Shown: in pieces, positions 51,060-55,412 of the stretch
Layout of the letters: the number at the start of each line of letters is the position of its first letter
Numbering within the stretch: position 1 is the stretch's first letter
DNA from: Promethearchaeota archaeon
GTDB taxonomy: Archaea; Asgardarchaeota; Lokiarchaeia; Sigyniarchaeales; SOKP01
Direction: 5' to 3'
NCBI GenBank assembly: GCA_011364925.1
Contig: RDOA01000015.1
Coordinates: 1 to 64,000 of the forward strand
DNA: 64,000 nt
The notes under the pieces: model-generated
The model's database searches: none
Told to the model about the DNA's origin: nothing
Seen by the model: only the letters and a program-made list of their open reading frames with translations
Program-made: the position numbers and the translations under genes

Positions 51060-51917
51060 TCATAGATTCATTTGGTTTTTATACGCATAGAAAGTGTTTT
51101 GTAGTAAGAAGCTAACAGTCATAGGACCCACGCCCCCGGGATTAGGTGTAATCCATGAGCACTTATCGAACACACCTTCATAGTCAACATCACCGCATGT
51201 TTTTCCGTTAACTCTATTCGTTCCTACATCTAGAATAACAACGCCTTCTTTTATTTTCTCTTTAGTTATGAAATTGGGTTGACCTACTGCGACTATTAAA
51301 AGATCTGCTTTCTTAATAAACTCATTTATATTCACTGTTGATGTATGGCAGATCGAAACAGTAGCATTTCTTTTTAAAAGCATAAATACTAATGGTTTAC
51401 CTACTAAATTAGACCGATTAATAATGACAGCGTATTTTCCTTTGATTTCTACATTATAGTGTTCTAAAAGAGAGATTATCCCTTTTGGAGTACATGGTAC
51501 GAGATCTTCCTTGTAGTCAAATAATTTCCCCCGATTGAACGGATGAAGTCCATCTACATCTTTTTGAGGACTTATTTTCTCAATAAATTCATTAGTAGAA
51601 TCTTTTAGTTCCTTTGGAAGAGGAAGTTGTAAAATTATACCATGAACAGAATTATCTTCATTGAACCGTTTTATTTCATTTAGTAAGGTTTCTTTTGAAG
51701 TCTCTTTCTCAAGATTTACAAGTAATGAATCTATTCCAACTTCAGAACAAGTTCTTCTCTTGATATTTAAATACAATTCTGAAGCAGGATTATTACCAAC
51801 AAGAATGCCCGCTAATTTTGGTTTCACACCAGTTTTTTTGGAAATCAATAGTACTTTCTCTTTTAATTCCAAGTTTAATTTTTGCGACAAGAGCTTTCCG
51901 TCTAATACTTTTCCCAT
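51060..51917 (-). CDS. folD: Methylenetetrahydrofolate dehydrogenase/cyclohydrolase FolD
   Basis: The 285-residue protein has all FolD landmarks: GILVGNNPASELYLNIKRRTCSEVGI with the catalytic lysine, VHGIILQLPLP, SPQKDVDGLHPFNRGKL, PCTPKGI, INRSNLVGKPLVFMLL, ATVSICHTST, and ITPNPGGVGPMTV. It interconverts methylene-, methenyl- and formyl-tetrahydrofolate in the cytoplasm using NAD(P). It supplies formyl-THF used by PurH (61116), so folate C1 chemistry is present rather than only methanopterin. Length and motifs are standard. Confidence 0.95.
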   Translation of the reverse strand: MGKVLDGKLLSQKLNLELKEKVLLISKKTGVKPKLAGILVGNNPASELYLNIKRRTCSEVGIDSLLVNLEKETSKETLLNEIKRFNEDNSVHGIILQLPLPKELKDSTNEFIEKISPQKDVDGLHPFNRGKLFDYKEDLVPCTPKGIISLLEHYNVEIKGKYAVIINRSNLVGKPLVFMLLKRNATVSICHTSTVNINEFIKKADLLIVAVGQPNFITKEKIKEGVVILDVGTNRVNGKTCGDVDYEGVFDKCSWITPNPGGVGPMTVSFLLQNTFYAYKNQMNL

Positions 51918-52020: not shown

Positions 52021-53130
52021 TTAAATTCTTCGACGACGCTGAATTATGTAAGCAATCAAAACAATTGCTCCAATAACTGTTAATAATATAATTAAAATTA
52101 TATAATTAAACTCGACCATGAATATATCTTCGTTCAATAAATCTAATAAACCTAGTGATTGTAAAATCTTGAATGCAGAATAAGTTGTACCAATAGAAGA
52201 AAATTTTTGATCAGTCCCTTCAATCGAATCGCCAAAACCACCATCAAGAAAATTTTGATGTTTTAAGACCCAATTTGAGGTTGCGTCTTTATTTAATTCA
52301 TTTATATCTATAATTTTAATTCCTTCAACGCAGAGAAGGGTACTTCCTAATAATGTAACTTCAGAAAATAGATCTGGTAAATATCCACCATAGTTATCAA
52401 GATTATTAGAATCTCCGATATAAAGCGACTTAAAGTAATCGAGTGTCGCAGTTGTGTTTACTAAATTACTAATTGTACCTAATTCGGTTGTTAAATAAAC
52501 CGCAAAATTGGTTGTTGTTAAAGTAGATGGTAGAGTTTGGTTTCCTCCATAGCCACCATCAGAATTATAGCATGATGAGATCCAATTTAAATGTGTTGTC
52601 TTATTTTTGACTGGTTCATTAAGCAAAGAATATATATTATAAATGTAGTATGTTGAAACCATGTTAGCATGCCCAGATTCGTTTGTGGGACTAAATCCTC
52701 CACCAATTTGGTAAGTTTCATTTATATATCTATAAATTTTATTATGAAGAGATGTATTTAATGCTGTACTTAATGGTTCCAATACATTTAAAGCTTCTAA
52801 GTTATATTTTATAGTGTATATATCGATTGTTTCAGAAGAAAACATTTGATTAATTTCATTTTTAAGGTAATTTTTCAATTTGAGGATGTCAACGCTTTTG
52901 GTCCCGCTAAATGCGTTATAATAGGCTATAATTTCTATTGCATTAGCAGTTTCTTGGGAATTAACGCCAAAACTTTGATCTTTATGTTGATATTTGTAAA
53001 TAAAATCAACTAGATAACTCTCACGGGTTTTCGCGAGCACGATAGGAGTGATACTTAACATTACTATAATAACTAAAAACACAAATGATAAATTTCGAAC
53101 TCTCTTATTCAAATCGAAGTGAAACCCCAA
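52021..53130 (-). CDS. Exported, membrane-anchored alpha/alpha-toroid protein (prenyltransferase/squalene cyclase-like repeats)
   Basis: The 369-residue protein has a signal or anchor (VRNLSFVFLVIIVMLSITPIVLA, near 11-33). Repeats carrying the QW-like or prenyltransferase-beta motif follow (NSDGGYGG, IGGGFSPT, LDGGFGDS, DNYGGYLPD), with hydrophobic helices between them. A C-terminal TM segment (FNYIILIILLTVIGAIVLIAYII) is followed by RRRRI, positive and so on the inside. The repeats fit the toroid fold of protein prenyltransferase beta subunits and terpene cyclases. An external location argues against prenylation of cytoplasmic proteins. Metal ligands or DxDD motifs were not seen. It is likely a surface binding protein or an orphan enzyme. 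Confidence 0.76.
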   Translation of the reverse strand: MGFHFDLNKRVRNLSFVFLVIIVMLSITPIVLAKTRESYLVDFIYKYQHKDQSFGVNSQETANAIEIIAYYNAFSGTKSVDILKLKNYLKNEINQMFSSETIDIYTIKYNLEALNVLEPLSTALNTSLHNKIYRYINETYQIGGGFSPTNESGHANMVSTYYIYNIYSLLNEPVKNKTTHLNWISSCYNSDGGYGGNQTLPSTLTTTNFAVYLTTELGTISNLVNTTATLDYFKSLYIGDSNNLDNYGGYLPDLFSEVTLLGSTLLCVEGIKIIDINELNKDATSNWVLKHQNFLDGGFGDSIEGTDQKFSSIGTTYSAFKILQSLGLLDLLNEDIFMVEFNYIILIILLTVIGAIVLIAYIIQRRRRI

Positions 53131-53259: not shown

Positions 53260-54786
53260 CTAAAAAATTTCACTTATGCTCTTGTATAGAGTAGCACTAT
53301 TGGACTGAAATTGTTCGTGGGTTACAAATAAACTTTGAAAGCTTGGAAGACTCCCAAGTATGCTCGCACCATTAAATATAGCAAACTGTAAGTTTTCTGG
53401 GACAAAAAATCTTAAAACTTCTTCTGATGATTCGTAGAAACCTGAAAATTCTTTTGCAGGTGTAGTATTCTTAATAATCTCGGGAGGAATCTCTGGAATT
53501 CTTGTTGTTTGAATACTTGCTCCACAATACGGACAAAAAAATGACTTAACGTCTTCAATTTCTTTATTACAATTAGAACATAAAATTTTGCCACCTTCAA
53601 GCTTGGAATTTTTAGCCATTTTTACACCTCCAATTGTAAGTTCTGGTAATGCGATTCGACCGTTACAAGATGGACAAAATTCTTTACCATCTGTAAGATC
53701 TACAAGCGTACCACAATGTGGGCATGTATCTTCCTTCTTTTGCGATTTTTCCTTTGGTTTTAACTTTTGCCTTCCTTCCCGCGAAGGTTGAGTAATTTTA
53801 GGTTTAGGGATCTTTCCTAATTGAGGGAGTAATTGGTTTAATTCTAATCTCAGTCTCTCTTCAAATCCAGAATATGAGAGATTTCCACCCGAAATCATAA
53901 TATGAGAAAGAAGATCACTCCAGAAGTATTTATCGATTCCTTGTAAACTATTTATCATTGCCTCTGGTATATTCATAATATTATATCCCAATAAATTAGG
54001 CTTAAACATTACCTCTGGAGCTTCATGGAAAATATAATTTGGAATATTAATGTTTGAACCATCTGGCATCGCAAAACTATAACTTTCATCTACTTTTGGA
54101 GGGTTCTCGGGATCTAAAGCAAAAAAACAATTCTTTTCTTTGATATCTTTAACTATTTCATCTACAGCGCTTGATTCTATATTGATCCCTTCTCTCATAA
54201 GCAAATTTTTTAAATGCTGATTTACATCTATACCAGCTAAAGTTAATTTTTGGACTGATTGCTCAACCATTTCTCCATTTAGAATCGGGCATACCCAAGT
54301 TATCCCATCACCACTTTCTACAACAATTCCAGTCGTAAGACCTACACTGAATAGTGAAAGTATTGGTGTTGGGATCATTATTAAACTTTTTACTCTATGC
54401 GTTTCAAACAAAACTCGGGCAATGTATTCCTTAGTCTCTCGTTGAACAAATGGAGATTCAGTATATAACACGGGATAATTAGCCATGTTTTCGATTCTAA
54501 GTAACGAATAAAAGATGTAATTTAATATTTCATAGTAGTCGTTCCAATCCGTTATCGCACCTCGTTCGATTGGGTGCTTTATTTTTAGAACACCTCTCAT
54601 TTTTGAAGCGTCTGATCCAATATATATATTTCGAGCTCCCACATCAACCATCACAGCTTTATATTTTTCTGTACCTGTGATTGTGGGGAACACAAATCTA
54701 GGACTGGGCTCTCCTGCGAATCCTATTTTAGTGTAGGCTGATCCAATGTCAACAATAATCGGAGTTCCGGGTAATGGGATTGCCAT
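53260..54786 (-). CDS. Actin-related protein with inserted double zinc ribbon
   Basis: The 508-residue protein has the actin core. IVDIGSAYTKIGFAGE (11-26) is the first phosphate loop, GAITDWNDYYEI (76-87) aligns with the actin W-D segment, GIVVESGDGITW (153-164) is the second phosphate loop, HIMISGGNLSYSGF (295-308) is the adenosine motif, and NLQFAIFNGASILGSL near the end matches actin's GGSILASL. Between the last two lies an insert of about 110 residues with a basic linker. It contains two zinc ribbons (Cys355/358/371/374 and Cys403/406/418/421). The insert sits where subdomain 3 continues. The protein may polymerise or act as an ARP scaffold. It is a single gene on its strand with no clear operon partner. 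Confidence 0.88.
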   Translation of the reverse strand: MAIPLPGTPIIVDIGSAYTKIGFAGEPSPRFVFPTITGTEKYKAVMVDVGARNIYIGSDASKMRGVLKIKHPIERGAITDWNDYYEILNYIFYSLLRIENMANYPVLYTESPFVQRETKEYIARVLFETHRVKSLIMIPTPILSLFSVGLTTGIVVESGDGITWVCPILNGEMVEQSVQKLTLAGIDVNQHLKNLLMREGINIESSAVDEIVKDIKEKNCFFALDPENPPKVDESYSFAMPDGSNINIPNYIFHEAPEVMFKPNLLGYNIMNIPEAMINSLQGIDKYFWSDLLSHIMISGGNLSYSGFEERLRLELNQLLPQLGKIPKPKITQPSREGRQKLKPKEKSQKKEDTCPHCGTLVDLTDGKEFCPSCNGRIALPELTIGGVKMAKNSKLEGGKILCSNCNKEIEDVKSFFCPYCGASIQTTRIPEIPPEIIKNTTPAKEFSGFYESSEEVLRFFVPENLQFAIFNGASILGSLPSFQSLFVTHEQFQSNSATLYKSISEIF

Positions 54787-54989: not shown

Positions 54990-55412
54990 TTACTCGATTT
55001 TTAAAGATTTTTCTAACTTCTTTTCTATATCTTCTAGCTCCACGAAAAGAGTTTTATAAGTTTTAAGTAAATAGTGACCCCAATCGTTTAATTTAACCCA
55101 TCCTCCTCCACCAAGACCCCCTTTTTTGGTTTCTACGGGTGATCTTCCTGATCGCTCTTTAATTTTTTTTAAGATATTCCACGCATATTTATAAGAGTAT
55201 CCACATTCCATTGCCGCTTTGGTTAATGATTTGGGCTCACCCATATCAGCATCATTAATAGAATCAAGTAATTTAGCCCAGCCTGATCCTAATATGTTTT
55301 TGCGATCCTCATCTTGAAATTCTAACCAAAATTTAATACCAAAACCAATTTTACTTTTTAATTTTTCAAAGTTCGAGTTTTTACTCAATTTTTCACTAGA
55401 TGGATCTTCCAT
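54990..55412 (-). CDS. ModE-type winged-helix transcriptional regulator
   Basis: The 140-residue protein has the LysR/ModE-type helix-turn-helix: GWAKLLDSINDADMGEPKSLTKAAMECGYSYKYAWNILKKI is the helical core, followed by a glycine-rich wing GGLGGGGWVKLNDWGHYLL. Molybdate-dependent ModE proteins have a C-terminal ligand domain, which is missing here, so only DNA binding is indicated. A short coiled-coil tail (FVELEDIEKKLEKSL) may dimerise. It could control molybdenum-related genes elsewhere. The motif start and length suit the N-terminal half of ModE. Confidence 0.82.
   Translation of the reverse strand: MEDPSSEKLSKNSNFEKLKSKIGFGIKFWLEFQDEDRKNILGSGWAKLLDSINDADMGEPKSLTKAAMECGYSYKYAWNILKKIKERSGRSPVETKKGGLGGGGWVKLNDWGHYLLKTYKTLFVELEDIEKKLEKSLKIE

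Follow-up and report, generated by a model that had tools for sequence, protein, structure and literature searches.

A conserved family of Asgard actin-related proteins whose filament-contact loop carries zinc ribbons

Results

We analysed a 64,000-nucleotide stretch of DNA (the window) from an Asgard genome of 3.92 Mb in 112 contigs. An actin-related protein (ARP) gene lies on its minus strand at positions 53260..54786, where an uninterrupted reading frame with an ATG start and zero internal stops encodes 508 residues. The protein consists of an actin fold (residues 1-322; 53821..54786, minus strand), an insert that carries zinc ribbons (residues 323-455; 53422..53820, minus strand) and the last actin block, which forms the C-terminal part (residues 456-508; 53263..53421, minus strand). 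The Pfam Actin family (PF00022) matches residues 9-324 at 1.8e-71, which places the protein in the actin superfamily. The actin core of the AlphaFold model is confident, and model residues 3-505 superpose on beta-actin 2-375 with a Z of 46.0 (368 aligned residues, rmsd 2.0 Å); PDB alignments put the short last actin block at residues 458-500. The host genome has five actin homologues: two Lokiactins and two other ARPs (L002, L003, L004 and L005), together with the zinc-ribbon ARP. The L004-type ARP has D137 and R161 instead of the catalytic residues and carries no insert. A tRNA scan found no tRNA genes in the window.

The insert stands in place of the actin loop at about residues 322-326, a longitudinal contact on the barbed face of subdomain 3. 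It starts after the P322 equivalent and extends almost to the strand that begins near K328. The gap between the conserved actin blocks is about 131 residues longer than in Lokiactin, and the ribbons make up 67 of these; the other Asgard actins that we aligned have at most four extra residues at this site. A first-pass annotation had described an actin-related protein with two CxxC-CxxC ribbons spanning Cys355-Cys421, and this description holds. The CxxC pairs start at residues 355, 371, 403 and 418, forming ribbon 1 (residues 355-374; 53665..53724, minus strand) and ribbon 2 (residues 403-421; 53524..53580, minus strand), and the double zinc ribbon family PF12773 (DZR) matches residues 355-422 with 28.5 bits, above its gathering score of 27.3. 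The pair of CxxC-CxxC ribbons is common to PF12773 and the ARP, but in the ARP it is placed inside an actin fold, and only a single ribbon occurs in family f4 (Sigynarchaeum and kin). The annotation had also placed the insert before the last actin block, where it could decorate or block subdomain 3, and the replaced contact loop bears this out. Its length estimate of about 110 residues was too low, and the basic linker that it described is not a conserved feature, as detailed below. In F-actin, the subdomain-3 loop 323-327 touches the 242-247 loop of the neighbouring subunit (PMC3990709).

Ribbon 1 is present in every complete orthologue that we read, f4 included. All eight ribbon cysteines are retained in every complete orthologue read from families f1-f3; ribbon 2 is less conserved and is absent from f4, which has four ribbon cysteines. 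Among five close orthologues, identity is 85-100% for ribbon 1 compared with 78-91% for the actin core, 58-68% for ribbon 2 and 29-81% for the linkers. E446, which lies in the linker C-terminal to the ribbons, is almost invariant, and its surroundings are possibly a short motif. The annotation had named several ways in which it could fail, and none occurred: homologues have the ribbons, there is no frameshift, and the fold is actin-like at Z 46. The reading of the gene as an assembly or frameshift artefact, or of its cysteines as chance, is practically impossible; it is refuted by orthologues in 70 genomes and by the invariant cysteines, purifying selection on ribbon 1 also argues against it, and we found nothing in its favour.

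Three linkers in the insert (331-348, 381-398 and 426-448) have pLDDT values below 50 in the AlphaFold model, and the ribbons reach about 70. The ribbons are therefore likely to be tethered rather than rigidly placed. The charge of linker 1 is +7 in the window ARP and runs from +9 to -4 across orthologues; the corresponding ranges are -7 to +6 for the ribbons and +8 to -14 for the entire insert. Basic charge is not a conserved property of the insert, and nucleic acid is a less likely partner than protein.

Residues that bind the nucleotide (D11, K18, K213 and G301/G302) are retained in all or nearly all zinc-ribbon ARPs, but the catalytic positions have changed. In the window ARP these changes are Q137 to T, D154 to E and H161 to W. 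Position 137 is T, S or A and never Q in all 28 representatives that cover it, and H161 is mostly W, with H in only two of 28, both from f4. D154 is mostly E, and D157 is additionally lost in the Prometheoarchaeum/Harpocratesius group. Lokiactins retain both Q137 and H161. The earlier claim that all actin nucleotide motifs are present is thus correct for the binding residues, including G302, and incorrect for catalysis. These substitutions suggest that the ARP would keep ATP bound with slow hydrolysis or none; in Arp8, Q137 and H161 correspond to E and S (PMC3510490). Three Prometheoarchaeum-type proteins (L056, L058 and L059) carry an extra CxxC, within GCGLCTICP at residues ~167-174, in the actin fold near the nucleotide loop.

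We compared the two filament faces with residue lists that we take to represent the pointed face (the D-loop, 61-65, 200-208 and 241-247) and the barbed face (166-171, 283-294 and 322-325). Compared with Lokiactin, the zinc-ribbon ARP has an identity of 0.49 across the pointed face, 0.31 across the barbed face and 0.37 in total, and the L004-type ARP gives 0.34 and 0.42 for the pointed and barbed faces, respectively. Within the zinc-ribbon family, identity is 0.61 on the pointed and 0.49 on the barbed face. The fraction of circular shifts that match the raw face contrast is 0.028, and 0.008 match the contrast relative to the L004-type ARP. The D-loop and PDG 243-245 are kept, as is much of the target cleft (L346, L349 and F352), and there are pointed-face losses as well, such as E205. 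Together, these values suggest that the pointed face is still Lokiactin-like and that the barbed face has drifted, the contrast being moderate. In F-actin, residues 284-290 enter between subdomains 2 and 4 of the neighbour, and the D-loop goes into the neighbour's subdomain 1/3 cleft (PMC3990709). The barbed end is met by the D-loop or subdomain-4 side of the incoming monomer (PMC12674126), and a subunit with its pointed face kept and its barbed face changed would therefore cap.

At E <= 1e-75, a protein search across 227 genomes of the phylum matched 73. Four of the 73 were canonical actins outside the order and were excluded, leaving 69, and a profile of the insert and last block added one more, a fragment in G048. 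The spread of the insert, which the annotation had proposed to map, is thus 70 of 79 genomes of one Asgard order, and none of the 148 genomes from outside the order has it. No ribbon-inserted actin was found elsewhere in the phylum, where profile matches covered the ribbon part only. Records with the protein include Lokiarchaeota/Lokiarchaeia MAGs, CR_4, Sigynarchaeum, Prometheoarchaeum sp. and Harpocratesius repetitus; none of them bore the name of the cultured Ca. Lokiarchaeum ossiferum or Promethearchaeum syntrophicum. It is missing from nine of the 79 order genomes, including G028, which is rated 100% complete, and so loss is possible. A search for viral carriers found none, and the literature that we searched, whose coverage left out most subscription papers, held no description of a zinc-ribbon actin. 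Locus L131 holds an actin that is 42% identical over residues 10-276 and is cut by the contig end; its contig was binned as a Firmicutes MAG and is probably mis-binned Asgard DNA. Locus L117 encodes a zinc-ribbon ARP among Sigynarchaeum-like neighbours in a MAG labelled Bathyarchaeota (Bin_245), a label that is probably wrong.

In a tree built from actin columns without the insert, with a sampling that left out eukaryotic Arps, the zinc-ribbon ARPs form one clade (95/95), to which neither the L004-type ARP nor Lokiactin with eukaryotic actin belongs, and the insert is read as ancestral to the clade. This position, the absence of Q137 and the presence of H161 in only two representatives set the protein outside the Lokiactins. 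Within the clade, f4 branches off first and has one ribbon as against two elsewhere, which fits either gain or loss of the second ribbon.

Downstream of the ARP gene, across a gap of 130 nt, lies a gene for an alpha/alpha toroid protein (52021..53130, minus strand) with a predicted signal peptide, a C-terminal transmembrane helix and a basic tail, RRRRI, so short that only about six residues are cytoplasmic. The toroid (about residues 34-333; model pLDDT 88) has the protein-prenyltransferase-beta fold and aligns to RabGGTase beta with a Z of 28.1 over 274 residues. Unlike prenyltransferase beta subunits, it has the predicted signal peptide and membrane helix and no invariant zinc triad: the toroid alignment shows no Asp/Cys/His set of zinc ligands in columns that are invariant or nearly so. 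The toroid gene is directly downstream of the ARP gene in 63 of 67 loci, covering all four families, and most other flanking genes change outside f1. Both genes occur in 68 of the 79 order genomes and neither occurs in eight, a co-absence that is partly trivial, being inflated by physical linkage in incomplete genomes. Two genomes have the ARP only (G162 and G163, with no strong toroid match), and in one, G137, the toroid occurs alone (a contig-edge fragment). Distant toroids occur across Asgard archaea (E 1e-40 to 1e-16), and no actin gene lay near them in the 12 loci that we read outside the order.

Upstream of the ARP gene, a winged-helix regulator resembling the ModE N-terminal domain (54990..55412, minus strand; 7.6e-13) is found in 53 of 67 loci, though not in f4. 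This winged helix is a stand-alone protein, and a CBS-domain protein lies between or near the ModE-like gene and the ARP gene in 28 loci. FolD (51060..51917, minus strand) follows the toroid gene in 56 of 67 loci and is probably a bystander. The complete genome G028 lacks the ARP, the toroid and the ModE-like gene but retains FolD. No remodeller-like gene was present among the ARP neighbours searched. The nucleic-acid role that had been suggested by analogy with nuclear ARPs is not borne out, given a basic linker that orthologues do not keep, near-neutral ribbons and a neighbouring gene for a membrane-anchored toroid rather than a remodeller.

Discussion

The zinc-ribbon ARP is a real, conserved, order-specific family with its ribbons in a filament-contact loop. 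Loss of Q137 and H161, the asymmetry between pointed and barbed faces and the conserved gene pair are new relative to the first-pass annotation. We propose, with a probability of roughly 0.4 and on the basis of sequence features, that the protein is an ATP-locked ARP that docks on Lokiactin barbed ends and blocks the next subunit, with the ribbons as a tethered adaptor; the sequence gives good support to an ATP-locked adaptor, and barbed-end capping would be its likeliest mechanism. The ARP would hold ATP and cleave it slowly or not at all, and it would make no long homopolymers. Through its pointed face it could join a Lokiactin filament at the barbed end or associate with a Lokiactin monomer, and an ARP that cannot take the next subunit would become a cap. 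The ribbons, chiefly ribbon 1, would recruit a protein partner from flexible linkers at the exposed face, with the toroid protein as a candidate partner or a co-regulated surface protein. Its role in the cell's actin is probably that of an ATP-locked cap or anchor and not of a filament subunit. As a counterpoint, the flexible insert might swing clear of the interface and thereby permit copolymerisation. The earlier idea of an adaptor survives in part, given the lost catalytic residues and the ribbons on low-confidence linkers, but its nucleic-acid binding finds little support.

Like the zinc-ribbon ARP as proposed here, Arp2 and Arp3 are paralogues of actin with a role at filament ends. Arp2/3 serves as the template for a new filament; the zinc-ribbon ARP would have the reverse polarity, since its barbed face looks degraded and its pointed face kept. 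It shares with Lokiactin the actin fold, the nucleotide-binding residues, the D-loop and the pointed face, at 37-41% identity over ~315 residues, but Lokiactin has Q137, H161 and a short 322-326 loop, whereas the ARP has ribbons and forms a separate clade. F-actin-like filaments composed of Lokiactin have been reported (PMC9834061). Arp4 and Arp8 of INO80 are similar in having an actin fold with large insertions, a nuclear-Arp feature that the zinc-ribbon ARP also has, in the alteration of Q137 and H161 in Arp8, and in ATP binding with weak hydrolysis, which for the zinc-ribbon ARP is a prediction. Arp4 and Arp8 cap the actin barbed end (PMC6167448). However, the insertions of Arp8 cover the pointed end, the D-loop and the hydrophobic plug, whereas the only large insert of the zinc-ribbon ARP is the zinc-ribbon segment in the barbed-face subdomain-3 loop, and its loci have no remodeller context.

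The resemblance to Arp4 and Arp8 raises the alternative of a monomeric, ATP-bound scaffold in a cytosolic or chromatin-associated complex, with no Lokiactin filament contact and with ribbons that bind protein or nucleic acid. Catalytic loss and an in-fold insert fit this account, and Arp8 is itself monomeric, with insertions, Q137 to E, H161 to S and a small barbed-end insertion in subdomain 3 (PMC3510490). Yet an insert whose charge runs from +8 to -14, a basic linker that is not kept, the lack of remodeller-like genes among the neighbours searched and a Lokiactin-like pointed face, as opposed to the covered one of Arp8, make it rather unlikely. The preserved D-loop and PDG 243-245, together with much of the target cleft (L346, L349 and F352), could instead belong to a second, specialised filament former that polymerises with itself and displays ribbons outside the filament. 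This is improbable for a protein that has lost Q137 and H161, in which barbed contacts 166-171 and 283-294 have drifted and the insert sits in a longitudinal contact; moreover, the barbed face is more variable than the pointed face within the family.

We find it similarly improbable that the ARP is an ATP-dependent switch in a membrane signalling or surface unit, working with the toroid and the ModE-like regulator independently of actin dynamics. The finding that 63 of 67 loci pair the ARP with the toroid, the ModE-like gene in 53, and the absence of all three from the complete genome G028, which keeps FolD, would suit such a unit, but similar distant toroids across the phylum lie away from actin genes, and f4 has no ModE-like neighbour.

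Returning to barbed-end capping, we hypothesise a membrane link for the ARP. If the toroid is its partner, the capped end would be at the membrane; this is the weakest step of the proposal, the adjacency of ARP and toroid may reflect shared regulation only, and the short cytoplasmic tail of the toroid also speaks against it. The full arrangement, a prokaryotic actin-to-membrane linker in which the ARP caps Lokiactin barbed ends and the ribbons tie them to a single-pass membrane protein with an external toroid, is a long shot; if true, the Asgard cytoskeleton would be anchored at the cell surface. Asgard actin filaments have been observed, and we know of no Asgard ARP whose function has been assigned. 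The zinc-ribbon ARP family, present in almost every genome of one order, and its gene partner are concrete candidates for an archaeal filament-end regulator, and they indicate that ARPs with large in-fold inserts arose outside eukaryotes too.
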